Assembly: GCF_003063375.1 (NCBI RefSeq)
Contig: NZ_NERY01000001.1
Location: 1,736,001 to 1,800,000 of the forward strand
Reading direction: 5' to 3'
DNA length: 64,000 bases
Source of the DNA: Limnohabitans sp. MMS-10A-178
GTDB lineage: Bacteria > Pseudomonadota > Gammaproteobacteria > Burkholderiales > Burkholderiaceae_C
The position numbers and the translations under genes were made by a program. Below, piece by piece: positions 2-47,681 of the stretch. Position 1 is the first letter of the stretch. Every line of letters begins with the position of its first letter. A model generated the notes under the pieces. That model was not told the origin of the DNA, searched no databases, and saw only the letters and a list, made by a program, of their open reading frames with translations.

Positions 2-313
2 GCTGCCGACATTGTGGGTTTGATGATGCTCGAAGGAAGTGCTGTGGCTCGCAGCGTTGGCATTGATTTGAAGGTTGATCCGCTGGCCGAGTTAGAGCGT
101 GTACGACACAACTTGGCACAAACACCCTCGATGCTTCAAGACGTTCGTGCGGGACGACCGATCGAGTTTGATGCCATCATGAATGTGGTTGTAGAAATGG
201 CCCAGCTCACAGGGGTAGCTGTGCCTACGCTGAAGTCTGTTGCTGCCATGCTGGATGTGCTGAATGCAGGGGTCATTCGCCAAGGAAAGGGCATTGGCTT
301 TTTGAACAGTTAA
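2..313 (+). CDS. 2-dehydropantoate 2-reductase (ketopantoate reductase), C-terminal part, truncated by window start
   Basis: Frame open from base 2; C-terminal sequence (VGIDLKVDPLAELERV...GRPIEFDAIMNVVVEMAQLTGVAVPTLKSVAAMLDVLN) fits the ApbA/PanE C-terminal domain. Confidence 0.75.
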   Translation, partial: AADIVGLMMLEGSAVARSVGIDLKVDPLAELERVRHNLAQTPSMLQDVRAGRPIEFDAIMNVVVEMAQLTGVAVPTLKSVAAMLDVLNAGVIRQGKGIGFLNS

Positions 314-464
314 TAATTGGGGTCAGATCAACATTAATTTCCAATCTGTGAGGGCTGAAGGCAAGGGGGGCTGAACGATTTCTGGTACTCCAGTATGAGG
401 AAGCCCCCCTTGCCTTCAGCCCTCACGGATTGACCAAATTAATGTTGATCTGACCCCAATTATT
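312..464. repeat. Foldback element copy A: near-complete inverted repeat with ~60-bp arms around a conserved core loop
   Basis: Left arm AATAATTGGGGTCAGATCAACATTAATTT...GTGAGGGCTGAAGGCAAGGGGGGCT is complementary to the right arm AGCCCCCCTTGCCTTCAGCCCTCAC...AAATTAATGTTGATCTGACCCCAATTATT; core TGAACGATTTCTGGTACTCCAGTATGAGGA. Confidence 0.9.
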
Positions 465-7281: not shown

Positions 7282-7673
7282 GACGTTACAAATTTTTCTT
7301 GCTACTTTTGTTGTTGGGTCTGACGGGGTGTGCAAGTCAAACGCGCAATATGGCCGAAAGCATCAATCCAAGTACGCCGCAATTCAGGGAACCGGCTTGT
7401 CAGCGTTCGTTTGCATTGGCGCCGCTGCATGATGAGATCAAGTTGGCGCGGACCATTGCAACGCCTTCATTGTTGTTGCTTACAGGAGGTGGCTATTTGT
7501 TGCCATTGTTGGGGTTGAACATGGGCTTGGATGCAATCGATCACTACGATGCTTCTTATGTATCAAAGGTGTGTGGAGGCATGGCAACCCCGAGTCGAAA
7601 TATTTTGGAGAAAGTGTTGTTGGGCGCGGGGTTTAGTTTGTTCACTGGGAATATGAAGGTGTGGTCGCAGTAG
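7278..7673 (+). CDS. Small putative lipoprotein of unknown function
   Basis: Overlaps the S9 peptidase stop by 4 bp; lipobox LLLLGLTGC. Confidence 0.65.
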   Translation: MRRYKFFLLLLLLGLTGCASQTRNMAESINPSTPQFREPACQRSFALAPLHDEIKLARTIATPSLLLLTGGGYLLPLLGLNMGLDAIDHYDASYVSKVCGGMATPSRNILEKVLLGAGFSLFTGNMKVWSQ

Positions 7674-7694
7674 TTTTTTGTCTTTGAAATTTGC

Positions 7695-7790
7695 TGTGCT
7701 CGCTGCGGAAGGTTGCATTGGGCAGGATCCTCATACTGGAGTACCAGAAATCGTCACCTGTCCAATGCAACCTCCCACAGACTGCGAACA
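7695..7790. repeat. Foldback element copy B (core in reverse orientation, 7728-7756)
   Basis: Core TCCTCATACTGGAGTACCAGAAATCGTCA is the exact reverse complement of the copy C core; flanked by 15-bp arms GGTTGCATTGGGCAG / CTGTCCAATGCAACC (one mismatch). Confidence 0.85.
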
Positions 7791-7862
7791 GTATTCAATT
7801 TTTTTGAGAGATTTGCACCCTGCAATCAATTTTGCTTTAGTGGAGTTGTTCACCTGAACTAA

Positions 7863-7983
7863 GTTGCAAAGCATGGGTGAGGGGGCTGACGATTTCTGGT
7901 ACTCCAGTATGAGGAAGCCCCCTCACCCATGCTTTGCAACGTTCCCACTCAAAGAAACCAAAAATTAATGTTGATCTGACCCC
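7863..7983. repeat. Foldback element copy C with right-hand ATTAATGTTGATCTGACCCCA end
   Basis: Perfect 25-bp arms GTTGCAAAGCATGGGTGAGGGGGCT (7863-7887) / AGCCCCCTCACCCATGCTTTGCAAC (7916-7940) around TGACGATTTCTGGTACTCCAGTATGAGGA. Confidence 0.9.
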
Positions 7984-7985
7984 AT

Positions 7986-8885
7986 TTAAAGCTTCACAAC
8001 TTGAAGGGACTTAGAGAGGCACTCAACTTCGATGCGAGTTGCAAAACCCAGTGTTTCGCCATCTGCCGCTACGGGTACCAATGTGGTGCAGTGGAGGGTG
8101 GCGTTTGAAAAAGCATGGCACTGAATGCGGGGGTGACCCAGATGCTTGCCAATTAAAAGGCGTGGCAGCATGAGCAGAGTTTGCAAACGGTTGAACGTGC
8201 CGCCCACGAGCAAGTTGAGTTGACCGTCATTGATGTTGGCATGGGGTACGGCGGGCATACCGCCGCCATAAGTTGGGGTGTTGAGAGAAGACGCTAGCAA
8301 GCTTTGCCCCTCGAAGACCTGTTCACCATGGATTTCAATTTTCAGTGGCCAGTTCTTCAAATTGACCAACTCACGCAAAGTGGCAAGCAAGTAACGGGGC
8401 AGACCTCTTAGAAATTTAGGCCCTGCCAATGCGCGGTTGCCAACCGAAGCATCAAAGCCAACCGCTAAACTTGAATGAAAAAAAGTAGTTGTATTCTGGT
8501 CTAGCACAGCACGACCTATATCGATGGCGCTAACTTGACCTTCAAGTGCATAGGCCAATGCTTGTTGCCAGGTCATGCGATGCAAACCCCATGCGCGTGC
8601 GCAATCGTTGCCGCTACCGTATGGCACCAGACCGACTGAATGTCTGCCTTGTAACAAACCGGGCAGCATTTGATTCAAGGTGCCGTCGCCACCTATAAGC
8701 ACAACGCGTGTTTTGGGCGGCAACTGAGACAGAAGCTCGAGCGCCTTCTCAATGCTGTCGGGAACCACAATTTGGGGCGAATCATTTTGCGGTGGCAGTG
8801 CATGGCACCATGCCTGCACGTGGCTGATAAGTTGCTGTGCCCGACCCCCAGCCGCATGAGGGTTGATCAAAATGAGTGCAGTCAT
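7986..8885 (-). CDS. Diacylglycerol/lipid kinase family protein (YegS/BmrU-like)
   Basis: ORF extends to 8927; MTALILINPHAAGG start preferred. VVLIGGDGTLNQMLPGL, GLVPYGSGNDCARAWGL and DGE motifs of the DAGK catalytic family. Confidence 0.87.
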   Translation of the reverse strand: MTALILINPHAAGGRAQQLISHVQAWCHALPPQNDSPQIVVPDSIEKALELLSQLPPKTRVVLIGGDGTLNQMLPGLLQGRHSVGLVPYGSGNDCARAWGLHRMTWQQALAYALEGQVSAIDIGRAVLDQNTTTFFHSSLAVGFDASVGNRALAGPKFLRGLPRYLLATLRELVNLKNWPLKIEIHGEQVFEGQSLLASSLNTPTYGGGMPAVPHANINDGQLNLLVGGTFNRLQTLLMLPRLLIGKHLGHPRIQCHAFSNATLHCTTLVPVAADGETLGFATRIEVECLSKSLQVVKL

Positions 8886-9021
8886 GTGCGCGAGCAAACC
8901 CTGTTCTAGGAAATTACGCAAGGACAAAGACCCTGCTGTAAACGCAGCTTAGTAATAACCCGAATACGCAGGTCTTTAGAATGAATAATATTGTTAAATA
9001 AGATTTTATTGGGAATTCCGC

Positions 9022-11766: not shown

Positions 11767-14700
11767 TCATGGAACGCTGAAGCGAACGATGTTTTCTTGC
11801 ACCAACATCATGGCTGGGGCATTGGAAGTCGCCAAATAAACGTCGTAAACAATTGAATTGGCGTCACGCACCTTACCGCTCTGGAGAGTCCAGCCACTGG
11901 TGTTGACGCGATCGTTGCTGGTGCCATCGATGGCCACTTGATGGTAATTCACACCAGAGGCGCTAAATGATGTACCTGTACTGACGTTTTGCCAACCACC
12001 TGCGCCAAGTGTGTTCAATGTACTCAAATTCGCCCAATTGCTACCCGCCATGTCCAAAACATCTGCAACTCGCAGTGTGATTTGGTTGGCAGCCGTATCC
12101 GTTCGCAAATCAATGCGTTCAATGCTGTTGATGCGACTGGCACCCTCTATGTTGCCCACTGACGTGTTGCTGATCAAAGAGAAATCCAAACCCAGTCCGC
12201 CAGTACCGCCCATGCGCAGCGTATCAATGCCGCCGCCGCCATCGATCTTGGCCAGTTGCGTGGTGTTGCCGCCAGCGCCATAGTTGTTTTGCAGTGCGGT
12301 GATCATGCTGCTGTTGACGGTAAAAATGTCCTTGCCCATGCCGCCTAACAAAACGTCGGCACCGCTGGCCACAAACGTGTCATTGCCAGTGCCAGCGGAG
12401 AAGCTGCCGCCTGCCAATGTTTGACTGCCAGTGGAGGTGAGGGTGTCGTTGGCACTGGTGCCAGTGTTATCCACCGCAGTGCCAGCTGCAAACGCGCCTG
12501 CCTTGCTACCGAAGATGATGTAAGACCGACCTGTTTGAACACCACTGTGAGCTGCGTCATACCCGTGTGCACCCACAATCAAATCGGCCAAGCCGTCGCC
12601 ATTCACATCCCCAGCAGCTCCTACCGAGTAGCCACTTAAATCTTGCGCACCTTGACCCACGATGGCAAAGCCGCCAATGTTGTTGCCAATGTCCGTTAAA
12701 TTCACTTGCGTGGTGCTTGACTTGCCATACACCACAAAGCTGTGGCCTGTATTGGCGCCACCACCTTCCGCTTTAAAGGGTGCGCCCAAAATAATGTCGG
12801 CCAAGCCGTCGCCATTGATGTCACCTGCACTGCTCACACTGTGACCGCTTTGTTCATCGTCGGTACTTGACACAATGGCAAAACCGCCTACACCCGCGGC
12901 TACTTGACCTAAGTCGATGGTGGCATTGGCGGTGCTTCTGCCAAAAACAACATAGGTTTTGCCGCTGTAGGGGTTGGCGTTGGCCGAACCACCGATGATG
13001 GCGCCAATGATAATGTCGCCCAAGCCATCGCCATTGATGTCACCGCCACTGCTAACCGACACGCCGCTGAAGTCGGAGGTATTTTCGCCGCGAATAGCAA
13101 AGCCACCGATGTTGTTCTTGATGTCTTCAAGGTCAACTGCAGCGTTCCCATTTTTACCCAACACGACATAGGTCATGCCAGCATTGGTGCCGGCGGTGTC
13201 ATTGAAATAAGCGCTGACCAGCATGTCTGCTTTGCCATCGCCGTTAAAGTCGCCAGCGCTGCTGACGGAAGTGCCACTTTCTTCGCCAGCTTGCCAGCCA
13301 GAAATCACAAAGCCTGGCACACTGCCGCCCACACTGCCTAGCGAAATGGTCTGCAGGGCTGACAAAGCAGCACTCCCGTAAACCACATAAGTTTTGCCAG
13401 TGTTACCTGCCAAACCCGACACCACTTGAAAGTGCGCACTGATGATCATGTCACTCCAACCATCACCATTCACATCGCCCGCACTGCTGACAGAAAATCC
13501 TGCCGTGTCAAAGGTGCTGGTGATGCTGAGGGCGGCTGATGTGGCGCCTAGCGCGACGATGTCTTTTTGGTATTCGGCCAAGCTGCCCGTGGCGTTATTG
13601 GCTTTGCCATAGACTAAAAATGCGCCACCTGGGTTTGAGCTGGCGGCATCTTGCGGCATGCCAATTAGCACATCTGCAAAGCCATCTTTGTTCATGTCAC
13701 CCACACCCGCCACAGAAAATCCCAGCCAACCTTTGGTGACGTTGTAGTACATGTACTGACCATTCACTTGCCCCGTGTCGCTGTACCCTGTAGGGACATT
13801 GCTGGTGTTTTGGCCGCCTTGGTAAACAACGGCTGCGCCGCTTTGAGATCTCACGGTGCCATTGCTTTCTGTGAAGTTGCTCAGTGGAGCACCCATCACC
13901 ACATCGCCATAGCCGTCGCCATTGACGTCACCAGCCAAACTCACCGCAAAGCCAAAGTAGGCGCCCGTGTTGGGAGCTTCAATGGCATAGCCGCCAATGT
14001 TGTTGGCAATGTCGTCCAAGTAGATGGCGTTTTTGAAGGTGTTGACGTTGAGGGTGGGGGAGGCGCCTGCAAGGCCCGCATTGCCGGCGGTGTCGGTGTA
14101 GCTGCCGGCTGTCACGGTGATGCTTGCTGCAACCAAGGCTGTGTCTGCAAAGGGGGTGTACACCGCTGTGCGCGTGAGGCCTGTACCAGAAATGGCGCTG
14201 AGCGTGCCTTGTGTTACCACCACATCGCCAGTGGTGCCATCCCACGCAAAGGTACTGCCAGGGTCTTCACTGAACGTGAAGGTGATGTTGGCGGTTTGGC
14301 CCATACCCACGGTTGATAAGTTGGAGGTAATGACCACCGTCGGCACGGCTGTGTCGTAGCTGATCGAGACTGTGCCGCTGGCAGAACCCAAATTGCCTGC
14401 GGCATCTTGATAGCTGAGGTTCTTGACGGAGACGGTGGTAGTGCCGGCATTGACGTTGGCGGGTGGTGTGAAATCAAAGCCTCTTATCACGCCCACTTGT
14501 TGGCTCGGTACGGTGCTGAGAGTCACGGTACCCGCGCCAGTCACAGTCAAATCGCCAACGCTGCCATCCCACGTGAAGCTAGTCCCTGGGTCTTCACTGA
14601 AAGTGAAATAAACCCGTGTGGTTTGACCCGCTACGAGGTTGTTTGAATTGGCGCGACCTGTGACGGTGGGTGCCACAGTGTCAATGCTGAGGCTGGGCGT

Positions 14701-17700
14701 GGTACCAGCCGCCCCTAAATTGCCTGCAGTGTCTTGATAGCTGAGGTCCGTGACGGTGATGCTGGCGTTGCCACTTGCCAAATTGGCAGTGGGTGTGAAC
14801 ACGGCAGTGCGTGTGAGGCCTGTGCCACTGATGGCCCCCAGTGTGCCGCCGGAAACCGAGACATCACCCGCGGTGCCATTCCAAGTGAAACTTGTGCCAG
14901 GGTCTTCGCTGAACGTGAAAGTGATGTTGGCCGTGCTGCCTGCTTTGACAGACGTCACGTTGGAAGTGATGGCCACAGACGGCGCCACCAAGTCGATGCT
15001 GATGGCCGGTGTTGTACCTGCAGTGCCATTGTTGCCTGCCAAGTCTTGGAAACTGTTGGCTGCCACCGTGATGCTGGCCGTGCCGCTGGCTGTGTTGGGG
15101 GTGGGCGTGAAGGTGGCTGTGCGCGTGAGACCTGTGCCGCTGAGGGCGCCCAAGGTGCCGCCAGAAACACTGACATCACCGGTGCTGCCGTCCCACTTAA
15201 AACTGGTGCCCATGTCTTCACTGAAGGTGAAAGTGATGGTGGCAGTTTGGCCTGCCAAAAGGACGCTTCGGTTTGAAGTGATGGCCACAGTGGGGGCTGT
15301 GGTGTCGACTTTGTAATTGGCATTGTTGGCCACCGCGCTGTAAATGGTGGACGCCAAGTTGCCGTAGGTGTCTTGCAAAATGGCGCCGTTGTAGCTGATG
15401 CCATTGGCATTGAGGCTGATACCGTCAATGTCTGTTTGCCCAGCCTGAATGGTGTATTGGAAGGTCAAGGCATTGACGTCAATGCTCACATAACTGGCTT
15501 GCACCACGGTGCTACCAACGGTCAAGGCCAAGGTGGGTAGCCCTCCGCTGGTGATCATCTGCATGTTGAATTTATTCATGTAGACCGAGATGGTCAATAC
15601 ATCACCAGCATTGAGGAAATTGTTGACAACGCCTGAGCCTGATAAAGCAAATCCTGAGGCCAAAGGTGCAATGTTTTCAATGTGGTAATTGGGGCTGGTA
15701 CCCAGTACGCCTAGGTTGCCAAATGCATCTGTATAGCTATTGGCTACAACAGAAAGTGTGAGGTTGTAAATTTGCGTTGCCGCAGTGGGTGCCGTGAAGG
15801 TTGCGGTGCGTGTCAGGCCCGTGCCACTGATGGCGCCGATGCTGCCGCCGGTAAAGGACAAATCGCCAGTCGTTCCATTCCAATTGAAGGATGTCCCTGG
15901 GTCTTCAGAAAATGTGAAGGTGATCAAGCTGGTGCGTGTACTAGACAACACGCTGTTGCTCATGCTGATGCTGACACTGGGGGCTTGGGTGTCAATGAGA
16001 ATGGCAGGCGCTGAACTGGCGACCAAGCTGGCATTTTCGGCGTAGTCCTTAATGGCACCCGCATTCAAAACGATGGACGAGTTGACCAGTTGTTGGTTGG
16101 CCGTCGGCGTGAAGGTGGCGGTTTTGACCAGAAGACTGGATACCGTTACCCAATTGCTCAATGAACCGCCCGAAATGACAATGTCGCTGCCTAGACCAAA
16201 TGTATTGAAGTTTTGAATCCATTCGCTGGCTGTAAAAGTGAACGTCGCTGTTTCACCCGATTTGAGGGCGGTCTTGTTACTGGTGATGATCAGTGTGGGC
16301 GCTGTGGTGTCGACGATGTTGCCGCCATTGAGTCTTTCTAAATGGGAGAGTGACGCACTGTTGCCTGATGCATCTTTGATGGTGCCACCGTTCAGGGTCA
16401 AGGTGTTGGCCACAATGCCATAGCCGTTGGTATCGGTTTGACCGGCCAAGATGGTGTACCTGAACAGCATTATCTTGCTATTTTGTTGCCAGCTTGGGTC
16501 GTAGGTTGCTTTGACGACGGTGCTGCCAATCAATAAATCAATGGTGGGTAAGCCACCTGTCGTCACGATCACTGGTGCCTCAAGAAATGAGACATAAGCA
16601 CCAATCCTCGTTCCTGCTGCGCTGTAGGAAAGCATATCGCTTTGGAACGAGACGCTCGAAACGCTCATTCCCAACGTATCTAGCGTCATGCTAGGCGTGT
16701 TACCTTGTGCACCCGTGTTGCCTGCTGCATCGGTGTAACTGCCCGCATTCACCACCACGGTGGCGTTGCCACTGTTGACATTGGCTGTTGGCGTGAAGAC
16801 CGCGGTACGTGTCAGACCCGTGCCACTGATGGCGCTCAAAGTGCCATTGCTGAGGGTGATATCGCCCGCGCTGCCATCCCATACAAAACTGCTACCTGGG
16901 TCTTCAGAAAACGTAAAGGTGATATTGGCTGTTTGCCCCACCAACAACTGGGTCCTGCTGCTGGTAATAGCTACTGTCGGCGCAGTGGTGTCTACCTTAT
17001 AGGCTGCATTGTCAGCCCGTGCAATGGCCGTGATAACAGCGCTGTTGCCAGAACTGTCTTTGATGGTGCCGCCGTTGAGCACCAAGGCGTTGGCCGCATA
17101 ACTCAAACCATTGGCATCATTTTGCCCAGCCACAACCGTGTAGTTGAACAGCAAATCCGTTGTGCCAGAGCCTGAAACATAGACTGTAGCATCCCCTGAA
17201 CCGCCCACATTCAATGAAACTTTGGGTGAGCCGCCGCTGGTATTCACAAGCACCGCCTCACTGAATGTGGCAGTGATTTGCACCACATCGCCCGCATTCA
17301 AGGTGTTGCTCAAAATGCCGCTTGCACCCGAGATGTTCATGCTGGTGAGCGTGGGCACACTGGTGTCAATGGACACGCTGGCACTACTGCCTACTTGGCC
17401 TGGGTTGCCGGCCAAATCGGTATAGACCGCTGAGGCTGTAGACACCACACCTGCGGTGGTACTGCCCGCCGTCGGTGTGAAGGTAGCGGTGCTCACATAG
17501 TTGGCGCCGCTTAAAACAAAAGGACCGATGGCACTGAGCGTACCGCCGCTAACGGTTAAATCGCCTGCGGTGCCATTCCATGTGAAGCTGGTGCCAGTTT
17601 TATCGTTGGCTGTGATGGAGAGCGTGGCTGTTTCACCTGCTTTGAGACTGGCCATATTGAACGACAGTGACACCGAAGGTGCAAGGGTGTCTACCATGTA

Positions 17701-20700
17701 AACCGAGTTGCTGTTGACTGCGGCAGAACTTATGCTGGCAGAGTTGCCAGCTGCGTCTAGCAGCACCGCACCATTCAAACTCAAAGCGTTCAGTGCAATG
17801 GCAATGCCATCGGCATCGTTTTGCCCAGCTGCAATGGTGGTGGTAAACACCAGCGTATTGCTGCCAGCACCCGAAACATAAGTGGCCTGCACGGTGCTGC
17901 TGCCCACCAGCAATGCCAGTGTGGGTGAGCCCTCAGTTAAATTTAAGTTAACTGCCTCTGTGAAAGTGACACTCACATTGGCGGTGTCGTTTTCATTGAG
18001 GTACGTATTCAGAATGCCCGTTGAGCCACTGAGTGCCAAAGTAGAAATGGTGGGCGCCAGTGTATCGATGGTTAGGCTGGGTGTGCCGCCTGCACTGCCG
18101 TTGTTGCCTGCGGCATCTTGATAAGCCCCAGAACTCACAGCAATGCTGGCGGTACCTGTATTCAAGCTTGGCGTCGGGGTGAACACCGCCGTACGTGTGG
18201 TGCCTGTGCCTGAAATAGCGCTCAGGGTACCGTTGTTAAGCGTGATGTCGCCGGTGGTGCCATCCCAAACAAAGGTGTTGCCTGGGTCTTCGCTGAAGGT
18301 GAAGGTGATGTTGGCTGTCTCACCTGATTTAAGCTGGCCCACATTGGATGTGATGCTCAAAAATGGCGCAGTGGTGTCAACCGTGAAGCTGCTGTTGTCG
18401 GCTGTGCCAGGGGCAAGCAAGGTGGTGGTGTTGGTCCGCGGGTCTTGTAAGGTACTGCCGTTCAATGACAAAGCGTTGGCACCAATGGCAATGCCATTGG
18501 CATCGGTCTGGCCCGGTTGAATGGTGTACGTGAACAACAAATTGGCAGTGCCTGCACCTGAGGCGTATGTGGCATTCACGGTGCTGCTGCCAATCTGCAA
18601 AGCCACTGTGGGCGAGCCCGATGTTGTGTTGAGCGTTTGTGCTTCAGAAAAATGGGCTGTGACAGTCACTATGTCGCCAGCATTCAGGGCGTTGTTTTGA
18701 ACGCCTGTGGCGCTGCTAACTTGAACGTCCATCAAGGTGGCAGGCGTGGTGTTGAGTAACAAGCCGTCCAGTGTGTTGCCGCTTCCCAAATTACCAGCCG
18801 AATCAGTGTACAAATTGTTGCTAACAGTGATGCTGGCATTGCCACCCGACAAACCCTGCGTAGGCAAAAATGTGGCGGTACGGGTTAGGCCTGTGCCAGC
18901 TAGCGCAGACAAGGTGCCGTTGACCAAGCTCACATCTCCCGCACTGCCATTCCATGTGAAGGTGCTGCCCGGATCTTCGCTGAAGGTGAAAGTAATGAGG
19001 GCGGTTTCGCCGCTTAAAAAGACGCCCTTGCTGCTGGTAATGCTGACCAGCGAAGGTGCCGTTGTGTCCACCAAATAGTTGGCGTTGTCGCCAACGGCGG
19101 CAAAGGTCAGAGTGGGTGTGTTGCCTGCAGTATCGGTTAAGACTTTGCCGTTCAAACTCAGGCTGTTGGTGTTGATGGCAATGCCGTTGACATCGGTTTG
19201 CCCATTCAAGATGGTGTAGTTGAAAACCAATTGCGCCGTGCCAGAGCCAGAGGCATATTGCGCGCTAACTTCGGTGTTGCCAATGGTGAGGTTAAGGCTG
19301 GGTGTGCCTACGTTGGCATTCAAGAAAACAGCTTCTGTAAAGTTAACGGCTACCGACACCACATCGCCTTGATTGAGCAAACTATTTTGAATGCCAGTGG
19401 CGCTGAGCAGGGCCACGCTAGAAACTGTAGTCGTGGTGGTATTGATGCTGATGTTTTCCGATTTGTCCGTGACGCCTGCCGATGCTTCTAGGCCAATGTT
19501 GCCTGCGGCATCGGTGTAGCTGTTGAGTACGATGGCCACATTGGCCGTGCCTGCACTCACGCCAGAGGCGGGTGTAAGGAGGGCAGTGCGCGTTAGTGGG
19601 TTGCCGGTGGTGCTAAGGGCGCTTAAGGTTCCCCCCGTTCCGACTAAGTCGCCGCTGGTGCCATTCCAAGTGAAGCTGCTGCCAGGGTCTTCGCTGAAGG
19701 TGAAGGTGATAGTGGCCGTTTGTCCAGAGATCAAAGCACTGGTGTTGCTGGTCACTGTGGCTGTAGGACGGGTGGTGTCTACCAAATATTTTGCATTGTC
19801 AGCTACTGCATTAGACGCAATGTTGCTGTTGTTGCCCGAGGCATCTTTCAAGGACCCGCCATTGAGATTGAGTGCGTTGGCACCGATGGCAACGCCATTG
19901 CTGTCGTTCTGGCCATTGGCCACTGTAGCTGTGAACACCAAAGCATTGCTACCCGAACCTGAAACATAGGCCGCTTGTACCGTTGTACCCCCCACAATCA
20001 GTGCCAAATAAGGCGTGCCGCCACTTGTGTTTACGGTGATCACATCGCTGTAGGTAACGGTAGCGCTGAGCGTATCGCCAGTATTCAAATTGTTGATGGT
20101 GGCGTCTGATGCGCTAACCACACCTCCCGAAGATTGACTCAAAGCTAAGCTTGAAATGGTGGGGGCTAACGTGTCTAAATTGAGCGTAGGTGTGGTACCT
20201 GCACTGCCATTGTTGCCCGCACTATCTTGATAGCTGTTACTTGTAACGCCAATACTGGCCGTGCCACTGCCTTGGTTTGTAGCAGGCGTAAAAACAGCAG
20301 TGCGCGTGAGGCCTGTACCGCTAATGGCACCCAAGCTACCGCCAGTTACCACCACATCGCCCGAAGTGCCATCCCACGCAAAGCTGGTGTCTGGATCTTC
20401 AGAGAAAGTAAACGTGATATTGGCGGTGGTACCTACCGTCATAGAGGAAATGTCGGATGCGATGGTGACCGTGGGGGGCGTGGTGTCCACCATGTATGCA
20501 GCATTGCTGCTCACGGCCAACAAGCCGATGCTGCTGGTATTGCCATTGGCATCTTTGAGGGTAGCGCCGTTTAACAGAAGTGCACTCGCTGGAATGGCGA
20601 CACCATCGGTGTCGGTTTGGCCGCTGACAATGGTGGTGGTAAATAGCAAGGCATTGGTGCCTGAGCCCGATACATAGGCTGCAAACACAGTGCTTGCGCC

Positions 20701-23700
20701 AATGGTCAATTTGAAGGTTGGCTGACCTCCATCGGTGTTTAAAACGATGACATCGCTAAACGTGGCCGTCACACTCAAGGTGTCGCCCGCGTTGAGTGTG
20801 TTGTTGAGCTTGCCCGTTGATCCGCTTAAAAGGACGCTACTGATGATGGGTGCCAAAGTGTCGATGCTGATGCTGGGCGTAGTGCCTGCTGTGCCCAAGT
20901 TGCCGGCCACATCGGTGTAACTTGAATCGGAAACGGTAATGCTGGCTGAGCCACTGGCCAAATTGTTGGTAGGCGTAAAAGTAGCGCGGCGCACGTTGCC
21001 TAGGCCAGTTAGCGCACTGAGCGTGCCGCCTGTTACAAGCACATCGCCTACGCTGCCGTCCCAGGTAAAACTGGTGCCCGGGTCTTCTGAAAATGTGAAA
21101 CAAATCAAACTGGTTTCACCCTTTATGAGGCTTGCAGCCGAAGAGGTGATGACCACTGTGGGGGCCGTGGTGTCAACGGGGTACAAAATGTTGTCGGCCA
21201 CGCTGGCATTGCCCAGTGCTAAGTTGTTGCCTGGCACACTTTTTAAAGTGCTGCCATTGAGGGTGAGGGCGGACGATGGAATGGCAATGCCATTGGCATC
21301 GTCTTGCCCTGCCAAAATGGTGTAGCCGAATACAAAGTCGGTGGTGCCACTGCCAGACACATAAGCGGCTTGAACCAAGGTGCTGCCAATGGTCAAGCCC
21401 AAGGTGGGTGATCCTGCAGTGCTGTTTAAAACGATGGCTTCGCTGAAAACCACTCTGGCCAAAATCACATCGCCCGCATTGAGCAAGTTGCTAACAGCAC
21501 CCGTGGCGCTGCTCAGACCAACTTGGCTGACGGTTGGGGTGGTTGTGGAAAAGGTGAGCAAAGGGGTAGTGCCGGCACCGCCCGTATTGCCCGCTGCATC
21601 TGCGTAAGTGCCTGCATTGACCGAGATACTGGCGGTGCCAGATACCACATTGACATTGGGAGTGAAGGTGGCTGTTCGCGTTAAACCTGTGCCGCTGATA
21701 TTGCCCAGTGTGCCGCCACTCACTACCACATCACCTGCATTGGATGCCCAAACAAAACTGCTGCCAGGGTCTTCGCTAAAGGTGAAAGTGATGCTTGCAG
21801 TTTCGCCTGCTTTTAAAGTGGCCACATCGGAGGTGATGCTGACACTTGGCGCAGTGGTGTCGACCAAATAGAGCGGATTATTGGCTACTGCGATGGACGT
21901 GACGACGCTGGTGTTGCCTGCGCTGTCTTTCAAGGTTGCGCCATTCAAGCTGAGCGCATTCAAAGCAATGGCCACACCATCGGTGTCGGTTTGCCCGCTA
22001 GCAATGGTGGTGCTGAACACCAAATTGGCTGTACCAGAGCCTGACACATATGTGGCTTGCACCGTGCTACTGCCAATTAGCAAAGCCAGCGTGGGCGAGC
22101 CTGCCGTGGTGTTGAGCGTGACCGCTTCGTTGAAAGTCACGGTGGCACTCAGAGTGTCAGTCGCATTGAGCAGTTTGACAGTTGCATCAAGAGGGCTGGC
22201 TACAGCGCCAGTGGCGTTGCTAAAGACAAGACTAGAAATGCTAGGGGCAAGGGTGTCGAGGGTGATGTTAGATGAAACGCCAGTGCTGCCGTTGTTGCCA
22301 GCAGCATCTTGATAGCTGCTGGCTGTGACGGTGATGTTGGCGGTGCTGTTGGCCAAATTGGGCGTTGGAGTGAATACCGCTGTGCGAGTGGTGCCAGTGC
22401 CGCTGATGGCACCCAAGGTGCCGCCGATTATTACCAGGTCGCCAGAGCTTCCGTCCCAGGCGAAGCTTGATCCTGGATCTTCAGAAAATGTGAAGGTGAT
22501 ATTGGCCGTCTCACCGGCTTTGAGCGCAGCTACGTTGCTGGCAATGCTGACTGTGGGCGCTAGGGTGTCGATCGAAATGCTGGGTGTAGTGCCTGCGCTG
22601 CCAGAATTACCCGCACTGTCGGCGTAACTCAAATTGGTCACAGTGATGCTGGCGTTGCCACTGGCCAAATTGGCAGTGGGTGTAAACACTGCATTGCGAG
22701 TCAGTCCTGTGCCGCTGATAGTACCCAAGGTACCTCCGGTTACAACCAAGTCGCCTGAACTGCCATTCCACGCGAAGCTTGTTCCTGGATCTTCAGAAAA
22801 TGTGAAGGTGATATTGGCCGTCTCACCGGCTTTGAGTGCGGCAACATTGCTGGTAATGCTGACTGTGGGCGCTAGGGTGTCAATCGAAATGCTGGGCGTG
22901 GCGCCTGTGCTGCCAGAATTGCCAGCACTGTCTGTGTAACTCAAATTGGTTACAGTGATGCTGGCGTTGCCACTGGCTAAATTGGCAGTAGGTGTGAATA
23001 CTGCAGTGCGTGTTAGTCCGGTGCCGCTGATGGCGCCCAAGGAGCCACCCGTTACCACCAGGTCGCCAGTGCTTCCGTCCCAAGCGAAGCTTGTTCCTGG
23101 ATCTTCTGAAAATGTGAAGGTGATGTTGGCTGTTTCACTGGCTTTGAGCGCAGCTAAGTTACTGGTAATCCTGACGGTTGATCTCAGAGTGTCGATGGCT
23201 ATGCTTGGAGAAATGCCTGCACTACCTGTATTGCCGGCGCTGTCTGCGTAACTCAAATTGGTCACAGTGATGCTGGCATTGCCACTGGCTAAATTGGCAG
23301 TGGGTGTGAATACTGCAGTGCGAGTCAGTCCTGTCCCGCTGATGGCACCCAAGGAGCCACCCGTTACCACCAGGTCGCCTGAACTACCATTCCAAGCGAA
23401 GCTTGTGCTTGGATCTTCCGAAAATGTGAAGGTGATGTTAGCTGTCTCACCGGCTTTGAGCGCGGCAACATTGCTGGTAATGCTGACTGTAGGCGCTAAG
23501 GTGTCGATCGAAATGCTGGGAGTGACTCCCGCACTGCCAGAGTTGCCCGCACTGTCTGCGTAGCTTAAATTGGTCACAGTGATGCTAGCGTTGCCACTGG
23601 CTAAACTGGCAGTGGGTGTGAACACGGCAGTGCGTGTCAGTCCTGTGCCGCTGATGGCACCCAAGATTCCGCCCGTTACCACCAGGTCGCCAGTGCTTCC

Positions 23701-26700
23701 ATCCCACACAAAACTGCTACCAGGATCCTCAGAAAATGTGAAAGTGATGTTGGCCGTTTCACCTGCTTTGAGTGCGGCAACATTGCTGTTAATGCTGACT
23801 GTGGGCGCTAGGGTGTCGATCGTAATGCTGGGTGTGACTCCCGCACTGCCTATGTTGCCAGCACTGTCTGCGTAACTTGAGCTGGTTACAGTAATGTTGG
23901 CGTTGCCACTGGCTAAATTGGCCGTGGGCGTGAAAGCTGCATTGCGCGTCAGTCCTGTTCCACTGATGGCACCCAAGGTTCCTCCCGTTACCACCAGGTC
24001 GCCCGAGCTACCATCCCAAACAAAGCTAGATCGTGGATCTTCAGAAAATGTAAAAGTGATATTTGCCGTCTCACCAGCTTTGAGTGCAGCAACGTTGCTG
24101 GCAATGCTGGTGCTTGGCGCGGAGGTATCTACTTTGTAGCCAGCGTTGTCTGGGCTGACAACACTGGCTGGCAAGCTTGTCGTGTTGCCATGGGGGTCAT
24201 TGATGGTGCTGCCATTGAGTTGCAATGCATTGGCGTTAATGGCAATGCCGTTGATGTCTGTTTGACCGGCCAGGATCGTGTAGCTAAAAACCAAATCTGC
24301 TGTGCCTGCACCAGACACATAACTCGCTAAAACTTGGGTGCTGCCGATCTGTAAAGCTAGCGTTGGCTTACCGCCAATGAGGTTGAGAGTTTGGGCCTCA
24401 GAAAAATGTGCAGTGACGCTAACGGTATCGCCGGCATTGAGGATGTTGTTTTGCAAACCTACGGCACTGGAAAGTTGCATTGTCTCAAGAGTGGCGGGCG
24501 TGGTGTTGAGCAACAGACCCGTGAGGGTGTTGCCGATGCCCAAGTTACCAGCTGGGTCTGCAAATACACCGTTGTTAACGGTGATGCTGGCATTTGCTCC
24601 CGTTAAGCCTTGGGTAGGATAAAACGTAGCAGTGCGCGTAAGGCCTGTGCCGATGATGGCTGTTAGAGTGCCTTCAACCAAAGTCACATCGCCCGTGGTG
24701 CCATTCCAAGTAAAGGTGCTCCCAGGGTCTTCACTGAAAGTGAAGGTGATGGTGGCGGTTTGACCGCTCAAGAATGTGCTTTGGCTTGAGGCAATACTCA
24801 CCAGTGTGGGCGCTGTGGTGTCTACCAAATAGCTTGCGTTGTCTGCAACCGCACTAAACACATTGACCGCTGTGTTGCCCGCTGTGTCCGTAAGGGTTCT
24901 ACCGCTGAGGTTGAAGGTGGGGCTGCTCATATTTCTGGCCAAATTGCTGGCCACAATAGAAATGCCGTTGACATCGGTTTGAGCTGCCAGCACGGTGTAG
25001 GCAAATACCAGTGTGTTGGTGCCAGAACCGGAGGCATACATTGCGTCAACTTCTGTGCCGCCAATATTGAGTTTCAGGCTGGGCGTGCCCGCACCAGTGC
25101 CTAAAGTGACCGCCTTGTTGTAGTTGGCTGTGATGTAAACCACATCGCCTGCGTTGAGCAAGTTATTTTGAATGTTGTCGGCACTAGAAATGACCACAGA
25201 AGACAATGTGGCGGGGGAGGTGTTGACAGTGATGTTGGCCGATTTGTCGGTCACGCCAGCCACTGCTTCTAAGCCCAAGTTGCCTGCGGCATCGGTGTAG
25301 CTATTTAAATTCACGGCCACATTGGCTGTAGCGTCAGTAAGCCCCAATGCTGGCGTCAAGATGGCGGTGCGGATCAGTGGGTTGCCTGTGGTGCTCAGAG
25401 CGCCTAAGGTGCCCCCTGTCACAAGCAAGTCGCCAACATTGCCGTCCCATGTCAAAGAGTTACCAGGGTCTTCACTGAAGGTTAAGGTAATGATGGCGGT
25501 TTGCGCCGCATTCAAAGTACCAGCGTCAGAGGAGATTGCCACTGTGGGGCGGGTGGTATCGACCAAATACTTGGCGTTGTCTGCCACAGATGCAGAAGTG
25601 ATGATGGCTGCGTTGCCACTGGCATCTTTGAGGGTGGCGCCATTTAGACTGAGCGCATTGAGTGCCAGGGCCACGCCGTTGCTGTCGTTTTGTCCGGCAG
25701 CGACGGTGGTGCTAAAAACCAAGGTGTTGGTGCCTGAACCAGAAACATAGTTGGCCTGAACAGTTTCAGTGCCAACTGTGAGCGCCAAAGTGGGAGAGCC
25801 CGAAGTGAGATTTAAAAAGACAGGTTCATTGAATGTGACTGAGGCATCGATTTCATCACCTGCATTGAGCCATTGAATGCTTGCGTCGTTGAAGCCGGGC
25901 AATGCCCCTCTTGCATTCGTGATTTTTGTGTCATCAATGCTGGCTGACAATGTATCGATGTCGATAGGCGGACTTGAGGCAGCCAAGCCAAGGTTGCCTG
26001 CAGCATCTTGATACGTTCCAGCGTTCACCGAAATACTGGCACTGACACCCGATTGGTTTGGAGTCGGTGTGAATGTGGCCGTGCGCACAAGGCCTGTGCC
26101 ACTTAAGGCGCTCAATGTGCCGCCTGTGACAACAATATCACCTGCCGTGCCATCCCAAACAAAAGAGTCACCAACATCCTCGCTGAAAGTGAATGTCATC
26201 ACCAGGGTCTCATTGCTTTTGACGGATGTAGAATTGCTTGTGATGACAACGCTGGGAGGGGTGGTGTCGCTTGGAGGTGGAGCGGGTGGTGGTGAAGGAG
26301 CCAGAGGAGGTGTAGGAGCAGGTGGAGTTTCATTGCCGCCTTTGCTCCCGGCAAATACGGGAATGCCAATGGCTGTAGCTGCAATTTCCCCCAAACCTAC
26401 AGTGGCTAACAAAGCAGGTGTTGCGCTTGGCATGAGGCCTATCAAAGAGCCTGGGTTGTATAGAGCTACTTTGCAATCTAAGGCGGAGTCACTTTCAGTC
26501 CAAACCAAGCTTTCGGCTACATCAAATATTTCGGGTGGATAGTGCGAAATGACTTGAACCTCAGTACACGACTCGTTTTCTAAGCGGTAGACGGGTGCGT
26601 TTTCGACAGGCGTGAGTGAGGCTACAAAGTAATCTTGTATTTGAATGGCCGTTTCGTCATCAAATAAAACTTTCAGGTCTTTGTTTTGTCTTAAAAGTTT

Positions 26701-26889
26701 TTGACCTTTTTGATGAGCCCCTGTTTCGATGTTCAACAACTTGTACCGCGCACCAGACTCTGCTTTCACCAGCAAAGGTGCATTGACCAAGTTAAAGCCT
26801 CCTTTAGGCTCAGATGCATTGACCAGTCGCAAAAATCGTTCGGTGCCATCGGGCATCAAAATGTAAAGGTGTAGCTCATTGAAATTCAT
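11767..26889 (-). CDS. Giant type I-secreted repeat adhesin (~5040 aa): BapA-prefix-like N-terminus, Pro-rich linker, ~36 Ig-like repeats, 7 FG-GAP repeats, RTX-like C-terminus
   Basis: Single uninterrupted ORF (track 11767..26955; likely start [10 protein letters not shown] at 26889). Repeated [32 protein letters not shown] units, GDVNGDGxxDxxxGAP units, [15 protein letters not shown] near the C-terminus; adjacent to HlyD/ABC/TolC genes. Confidence 0.92.
   Translation of the reverse strand: [5040 protein letters not shown]
22250..24125 (-). repeat. Tandem array of six near-identical ~312-bp (104-aa) Ig-like repeat units within the adhesin gene
   Basis: Six consecutive (T/N/S)[22 protein letters not shown]... 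units; antisense ORF starts at 22634, 22946, 23258 and 23570 are exactly 312 bp apart. Confidence 0.9.
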
Positions 26890-26894
26890 GACTT

Positions 26895-28058
26895 TTAACG
26901 CTCGTGAAGCGCTCCTGAAAAAGCTTTCTGAATGGGCTTGGACAGGTATTGCCATACTGACCTAGAGCGAGTGCGAATATCCAAAGAGGCTGTCATGCCT
27001 GGCTTCAAATCGGTGGGTTTGATCCGATCTGAAACAGGCATGGGAGCTAACTCAACTTGAATTCGGTAATAGGTTTGTAACGAGCCATTGGATCCAGACT
27101 CCGTCAGGGTGTCTGAGCTGATGTGGCTTAGGTTGCCATTGAGCATGCCGTACACACTGAAATCAAATGCATCCAACTTGACAGAGACTGGCAAGCCAAC
27201 TTTGAGCTCACCAATGTCACTCGGATTGATTTTGGCCTCGATCACTTGGCCACTTTCTGTTGGTGATATTTGCATCAGCTCATCGCCAGCACGCAAGACG
27301 CCGCCAACGGTATTGATTCGAATGACTTTCACAATGCCAGCCACTGGTGTGGTGAGCACACTGTGGTCTAGCAAACTTTGGCGCTCATTCAATTTGAATT
27401 GATTGGATGAAATTTCTTCTTCTAGGCGCACCAGTTCAAGTTTGGCATCTTGCAAATACTTGTTCTTGAGCGTCAATATTCTTCCTTGACTTTCATGCAA
27501 CTGTCGCTGCGATTTCATCAGTTCAATTTGACTTAAGTCGCCAGACTTGAAGAGAGATTGGCTAATGCGCAGTTCTTCTTCTGAAAGCAGCAAGCTCGAA
27601 TTTAAAAGCGCCAAATCTTCGTTCAAGCCTTGCTTTTTTTGCTTGTAAATTTGTTCTTGAGCCAATTTGAATTGACCACGAGCATCAAATTTTTCGTCAA
27701 ATGTTAAGAGTTCGCCACTGGACTCGGCGTAAGCACGCATTCGCGCAGCTTGCAAAGCCGTTAGCTTGGCTTGAATTTCTTGAAACCCAGCCTCCGATCG
27801 GGTGCTTTCTAATTTGGCAACAACTTGACCGGCTTGAACAGCTTGGCCCTCAGATACCAAGAGCTGTGTCAACACGCCGCCATCTGCAGCTTGAATAATT
27901 TGATTTCTTGCCACAGCAATGACTTGGCCTGAGCTGCGAACGGTTTGATCCATTTCGGACTGGGTGGACCAAAGCGCAAAAACCAAAAGGGCCATGGCCA
28001 ATAGACGGGTGGGTGTGATGAGTTGGCGGGCATGAGCCCAAAAATAAAGGCGTGTCAT
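26895..28058 (-). CDS. HlyD family type I secretion periplasmic adaptor
   Basis: Single N-terminal TM, VSEGQAVQAGQVVAKLEST lipoyl-like motif, long coiled coil, C-terminal LKPGMTASLDIRTRSRSVWQYLSKPI. Confidence 0.92.
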   Translation of the reverse strand: MTRLYFWAHARQLITPTRLLAMALLVFALWSTQSEMDQTVRSSGQVIAVARNQIIQAADGGVLTQLLVSEGQAVQAGQVVAKLESTRSEAGFQEIQAKLTALQAARMRAYAESSGELLTFDEKFDARGQFKLAQEQIYKQKKQGLNEDLALLNSSLLLSEEELRISQSLFKSGDLSQIELMKSQRQLHESQGRILTLKNKYLQDAKLELVRLEEEISSNQFKLNERQSLLDHSVLTTPVAGIVKVIRINTVGGVLRAGDELMQISPTESGQVIEAKINPSDIGELKVGLPVSVKLDAFDFSVYGMLNGNLSHISSDTLTESGSNGSLQTYYRIQVELAPMPVSDRIKPTDLKPGMTASLDIRTRSRSVWQYLSKPIQKAFSGALHER

Positions 28059-47584: not shown

Positions 47585-47681
47585 AGGGCTTCCTCATACT
47601 GGGGTACCAGAAATCGTTCAGCCCCCCCCCCTTAGTCTTTATCACCCCTGATTGGAAATTAATGTTCATCTGACCCATTTA
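47585..47681. repeat. Foldback element copy D (degenerate stems; core 47591-47620 reversed) with ATTAATGTTCATCTGACCCA end
   Basis: TCCTCATACTGGGGTACCAGAAATCGTTCA is the reverse complement of the copy A core with one substitution. Confidence 0.8.

Follow-up and report, generated by a model that had tools for sequence, protein, structure and literature searches.

Intergenic palindromes of Comamonadaceae with a conserved hairpin tip and freely varying stems, probably recognised as folded single-stranded DNA

The window (the whole stretch of 64,000 nucleotides that was analysed) contains four exact, mismatch-free copies of a core sequence, CGATTTCTGGTACYCCAGTATGAGGA, located by pattern search at 376-401 (+), 7728-7753 (-), 7890-7915 (+) and 47591-47616 (-); 100 dinucleotide shuffles yielded no match, in agreement with the original prediction of a core of about 29 nt common to four loci in either orientation. 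Copy A (312-464, plus strand) is a composite unit of 154 bp, multicopy in Limnohabitans genomes, in which RAYT-type ends surround one core hairpin: a left end, AATTGGGGTCAGATCAACATTAATTT, at 315-340 (+), a left stem arm (341-372, +), the core as hairpin tip (376-401, +), a right stem arm (402-432, +) and an inverted right end (436-461, -), so that the closure of this copy by inverted ends was correctly foreseen. Copies B and C had been taken for separate elements but are two divergent hairpins of a single paired element (about 7690-7950, no strand assigned), hairpin B (7702-7780) having its core (7728-7753) on the minus strand and hairpin C (7863-7940) its core (7890-7915) on the plus strand; the element lies between a lipoprotein-like ORF ending at 7673 and a convergent gene on the minus strand (7986-8927). 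Copy D (47586-47680, minus strand) retains one hairpin arm, the core (47591-47616) and one degenerate RAYT-type end (47656-47677), its other arm being lost: past AGCCC, the second arm is exchanged for unrelated sequence, giving a stem score of 0. The self-complementary stems proposed for the four loci are therefore present in copies A, B and C, as near-perfect inverted arms of different sequence, but not in copy D, and they are "locus-specific" only in a relative sense, because the similarity of arms is somewhat higher inside one genome (median 0.52) than across genomes (median 0.40). In the source genome (Limnohabitans, 2.9 Mb) the stems of the A-type copies are related to one another. This genome carries 17 core copies, plus one with a shorter apical loop, and relatives carry many, showing that the core is not restricted to the window. 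Cores devoid of flanking inverted repeats, which the original prediction had counted against itself, amount to only two of 243 hairpins, namely copy D and, in L146, a hairpin that a restriction-modification cassette has interrupted. Apart from tRNAs, nothing in the window exceeded an Rfam gathering threshold, and the elements themselves gave only sub-threshold matches to microRNA-type hairpins, no family reaching its gathering threshold.

The hairpins are best read as a stem of 25-30 bp (median 28) with a closing C-G pair, above which come the 5x5 internal loop GATTT/YATGA, which is symmetric, and an apical stem of 4 bp (CTGG/CCAG) capped by TACY; the tip of copy A has GATTT/TATGA, CTGG/CCAG and TACT at these positions. 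In the internal loop the opposed bases may be read as G·A and A·G in tandem, then T·T, T-A and T·Y; just under the closing pair, Limnohabitans often has A·G and G·A at two positions that form Watson-Crick pairs elsewhere. Tip variants (CTGCTCGCAG, CTGCGCATTTGGCAG or CTGAATGCGCAGCAGTCAG) occur within the same flanks, whose constancy is partly by construction because the search patterns held them fixed. A strong stem was found in 239 of the 243 distinct hairpins and in only 33 of 243 after arms had been exchanged between loci, and arms from different loci share only about 45% identity. In an ungapped alignment of 67 non-redundant tips, 88.7% of the cells were paired (61.5% after shuffling), a percentage that is favoured because the structure came from the very sequences that were scored, with slid controls and shuffles bounding the resulting bias; covariation reached 0.648 compared to 0.156 in shuffled and at most 0.165 in slid controls, and two-sided changes were present at all 13 basal pairs and at both variable apical pairs. 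Compensation between arms without conservation of arm sequence across loci, as anticipated, is thus a property of the family in general and not of the window alone. A conserved foot was not detected, as none of the 16 positions to each side of the stem base had an information content above 0.18 bits. The tip is nearly invariant, while the stem of about 28 bp varies freely yet stays paired.

Allowing up to three mismatches, the core was recovered from 30 of the 401 genomes of the GTDB family, with copy numbers differing from 1 to 61 per carrier, 61 being reached in Polaromonas, and a reversed control pattern at the same tolerance had no match in these 401 genomes. Contigs of named genomes contributed at least 116 loci, nearly all titled Rhodoferax, Limnohabitans, Polaromonas, Comamonadaceae or Burkholderiales. 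When any apical loop was admitted between CGATTTCTG and CAGYATGAG, 45 of 361 genomes and 27 of 141 genera were positive (control pattern: 0 matches in the 361 genomes). Samples of the GTDB order and class contained no element outside the family. Four contigs titled Cryomorphaceae, Akkermansia or Singulisphaera (L084, L098, L118, L178) carry the element; these titles are probably wrong or the bins contaminated. Carriage by phages or plasmids was rejected, since viral contigs contained no element and plasmids searched with copy A gave no match, and a literature search for the exact core strings retrieved only unrelated papers. Judged by its sequence distribution, this appears to be an interspersed family of palindromic elements of Comamonadaceae, freshwater betaproteobacteria, located between genes.

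The hairpins often form divergent pairs: among the matches listed, two cores less than 450 bp apart stood in minus-plus order 43 times, plus-plus four times, minus-minus once and plus-minus never, with a core-to-core spacing of 107-276 bp, and 67 of the listed cores were single. Elements lie about 45 nt past stop codons, and with genes called mechanically their neighbours are convergent in 33, codirectional in 57 and divergent in 12 cases, single hairpins favouring neither orientation relative to transcription (15 against 18). A Polaromonas genome (G065) possesses about 30 pairs with common stem types that enclose a third, central palindrome lacking the core. Identical chromosomal sites are occupied in different species. 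This re-occupation was exposed by clustering of the neighbouring ORFs, which gave only ordinary orthologues (aldehyde dehydrogenase, parC, photolyase, ABC transporter) and led us to reject the idea of a gene that recurs alongside the elements; in 11 loci one or two hairpins, with differing stems, lie between an aldehyde dehydrogenase gene and one that, from its protein, we take to be DUF779-like. At the B/C locus, genome G435 has an orthologous pair, G428 a deletion remnant, and G423 a pair with stems matching another locus of G423, and the paired element is absent from more distant congeners; no clean empty site and no target duplication were found for it. Comparing hairpins B and C between the source genome and G435 revealed three compensatory double changes and two one-sided changes that keep pairing, together with two pairs restored and two broken; some of the stem changes between orthologues are disruptive, two of them in hairpin C.

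Several loci show elements associated with genes or interrupted by them. In the source genome, four paired elements follow serS and tRNA-Ser (G000:C1:828.8-834.8 kb; L078:8835-14830) with one to three genes between them, which encode an MBL-fold hydrolase, a toxin-antitoxin-like pair (DUF1778-like and GNAT) and a photolyase. The first of these elements begins right at the T-run of a terminator-like hairpin, and two of the four are followed by tandem half hairpins consisting of right arms from CCAGYATGAGG onwards (L078:13290-13360 and 14770-14820), as might remain after slippage or recombination at the tip. The parC-parE-like gap at L146:5500-7450 gives a single case of a cassette inserted at a tip: there a core hairpin is interrupted at its tip by a DNA methyltransferase together with a restriction-enzyme-like ORF, each side of the cassette retaining half a core. 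More widely spaced cores were also considered as a possible autonomous copy, and this was rejected: the L146 interval contains the methyltransferase and restriction-enzyme-like ORF just mentioned, L107 and L175 each comprise two RAYT-ended copies, and no transposase was present.

The mismatches tolerated in the stems are distributed very unequally between the two strands. When arms were aligned with equal scores for G·T and A·C, the stem cells, read along the core strand, comprised 228 G·T versus 24 A·C, 67 G·A versus 9 C·T and 21 G·G versus 3 C·C; per hairpin, G·T was in excess in 104 and A·C in 6 (p = 3e-24, after thinning at 85% identity and with no phylogenetic weighting). The bias is independent of transcription, as it was found both where the core strand is sense to its neighbours (G·T 55, A·C 9) and where it is antisense to both of them (G·T 72, A·C 8). 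When the stems alone were folded as DNA, both strands being given one and the same palindromic loop, the core strand was the more stable in 129 of 139 cases. Because the G·T bias follows the core strand whatever the transcription, the maintained structure is the fold of that strand in single-stranded form; the mRNA of neighbouring genes is excluded. The stem itself is a maintained part of the element because of its near-fixed length, the compensatory changes of arms at orthologous sites and its use of wobbles and mismatches on the core strand. The strand bias alone is as compatible with single-stranded DNA as with RNA made from the element; by analogy with REP/BIME biology, single-stranded DNA is most likely.

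Our preferred interpretation, to which we assign a probability of roughly 0.6, is that these palindromes constitute a Comamonadaceae family in which each hairpin works as folded single-stranded DNA of the core strand and is recognised via its tip, B and C forming one pair and A (with D as a relic) being carried in a RAYT-type unit. The unit would be a hairpin whose stem of about 28 bp is free in sequence and carries the 5x5 internal loop GATTT/YATGA and a short apical stem-loop; it is often set as a divergent pair just past gene ends. A putative protein might read the core-strand hairpin as single-stranded DNA, either during replication or on extruded DNA; we propose such a protein because REP sequences are known for the same three features: maintenance of one particular strand, irregularity of the tip and inverted pairing. 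TnpA-REP binds and cuts the folded REP but not its complement, and it reads irregularities of the stem (PMC8266576); recognition of the core family could likewise be strand-specific and operate through the irregular tip. Past dissemination would have been driven by the protein's reading of the hairpin, and selection for the fold, aided by recombination between copies, would keep the arms complementary while their sequence drifts. A testable prediction for this repeat of abundant freshwater bacteria is that a core-strand oligonucleotide should be bound or cut, and its complement not.

Each hairpin might instead be an RNA transcribed from its own core strand, e.g., outward from the spacer of a divergent pair, with the tip binding an RNA-binding protein. 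The divergent order indeed places both cores on outward transcripts, and tolerance of G-U together with a tandem G·A internal loop is also RNA-like; however, the closest pairs (107-115 bp core to core, among the matches listed) leave only about 30 bp between the stems, which can barely accommodate two promoters, the bias is the same in single hairpins of both orientations relative to transcription (15 and 18), and no Rfam family matches, which makes this explanation rather unlikely. Templated repair of palindromes is established, and complementarity of the arms could in principle be kept by quasi-palindrome correction (template switching) in the absence of any selection on the fold, the strand bias arising from deamination of an exposed strand. 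Recombination is visible at the elements (the exchanged flank of the copy in G435 and the tip replacements, both described below), but the mismatched internal loop is invariant instead of being corrected away, stem length is nearly constant, and the excess of G·A over C·T (67 versus 9) and of G·G over C·C (21 versus 3) does not consist of C-to-T deamination products: exposed-strand deamination could add G·T, but not G·A or G·G. We regard correction without selection as decidedly unlikely. A role as attC-like recombination sites of a cassette array is suggested by the four paired elements behind serS, with their intervening toxin-antitoxin-like pair and photolyase, and by the restriction-modification pair within the L146 hairpin tip; it is very improbable, given that there is no base conservation at the position of the attC R box, that copies elsewhere are scattered next to ordinary conserved neighbours, and that visual inspection of the ORFs in the 20-kb array region revealed no integrase. 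Action of the hairpin in the mRNA of its neighbours (as a terminator, or in processing or stabilisation) would suit the position about 45 nt past stop codons and the enrichment between convergent genes, but can hardly be upheld, for at elements whose core strand is antisense to the genes on both sides the bias still follows the core strand (G·T 8 and A·C 72 if read on the sense strand). Equally implausible are the two mechanisms first put forward, in which the core entered hairpins that already existed or the DNA beside it was copied to form an inverted repeat. In their favour, stems differ between loci and core-less RAYT-type units exist; against them stand the near-fixed stem length (25-30 bp), coevolving arms with compensatory changes at orthologous sites and a mismatch bias tied to the core strand through the whole stem, which together indicate that stem and tip form one unit, and a matching hairpin lacking the tip was seen at no site.

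Copy A is associated with a second type of repeat, RAYT-type miniature elements; in other genera the core family occurs without their ends. The source genome has a single Y1/RAYT gene (G000:C1:696075-696401; L047, L079), and on either side of it stand the 26-bp inverted ends found in copy A; in several other species, too, RAYT genes have related GGGGTCAGATC-type ends, so that the likeness to RAYT-associated sequences, initially offered as an analogy for the outer ends, was borne out. The unit of about 154 bp is interspersed, has discrete ends and matches at many places in congeneric genomes with 85-99% identity; simple 87-bp units with RAYT-type ends exist without the core. Because of the ends shared with the RAYT gene, the multicopy units and their core-less 87-bp versions, copy A is to be seen as a core hairpin carried by a RAYT-type unit, and copy D as a relic of one; from the shared ends we infer that the unit of copy A may have been moved by RAYT. 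In G435, the unit adjoins the orthologous gene upstream at almost the same position; it is inverted there and has another right flank, an arrangement such as recombination between copies would give. Two copies (L052:1501-1700 and L059:1501-1700) have a miniature RAYT-type element where the tip of the core hairpin should be; in L059 the surviving right arm is complementary past the normal stem. The lone RAYT-type end at 7962-7987 (-) lies right behind the stop codon of the minus-strand gene 7986-8927. At 70-85% divergence it is kept in several orthologues from Limnohabitans, whether or not these have the paired element, and is better conserved than its surroundings. RAYT was also considered as the enzyme of the core family itself, and rejected: the gene is present in 294 of the 401 family genomes, with or without the core (most genomes of the family have a single-copy RAYT gene), and the RAYT loci of 28 core-bearing genomes, inspected over about 1.5 kb around the gene where contigs allow, contained no core.

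Among known systems, the core family most resembles REP/BIME/REPIN sequences in being intergenic palindromes near gene ends, with inverted dimers (43 minus-plus against 0 plus-minus pairs among the matches listed), strand-specific hairpins with an irregular stem and variable copy number, and the predominance of G·T over A·C on the core strand (228 versus 24) would represent an evolutionary trace of REP-like strand-specific recognition. It differs from them in its conserved tip, free stem of about 28 bp and low copy number, in having neither a GTAG nor a CGTC foot (at most 0.18 bits at the stem base), and in that no cognate RAYT flanked by the repeat was found in the 28 core-bearing genomes; with foot motif and cognate RAYT missing, the element would seem to work like a REP pair and is not filed as one. 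Integron attC sites similarly keep structure with free stem sequence and are recognised on one strand, but have conserved boxes (RYYYAAC/GTTRRRY) at the base, where the core hairpins show no conservation, their constant part being the tip. The end hairpins of IS200/IS605 are folded single-stranded DNA of one strand read via the tip and stem irregularities, as the core hairpins may be by analogy, but no transposase gene was found between or beside the latter. We tentatively entertain the possibility that the family represents an earlier undescribed class of single-stranded DNA substrate, unlike REP, attC and IS200/IS605 ends, in which invariant loop and tip would be the recognition site of an enzyme, the stems being free and the sites re-occupied or kept across genera. 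BRE, a betaproteobacterial repeat of about 90 bp (75-91 bp), is described by Hot et al. (2011) as intergenic and present in Polaromonas, Rhodoferax, Acidovorax, Delftia and Bordetella (PMC3110155). By this description, on which the comparison is based, it is similar to the core family in size, range and location, but unlike it, is said to be alignable over its length and tandem (VNTR) (PMC3110155). Should the two be the same, the repeat would already be known, and its anatomy and strand signature would be new. The asymmetry of G·T and A·C in stems makes it possible to tell from sequence which strand of a palindrome is kept single-stranded, separately from which strand is transcribed, and further orphan repeats of a REP-like kind could be examined in this way.

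Elsewhere in the window, a giant ORF of 5062 codons occupies 11767-26955 (-), with antisense ORFs of 101 aa evenly spaced every 312 nt at 22634-23875; this points to internal tandem repeats and a large repeat protein.
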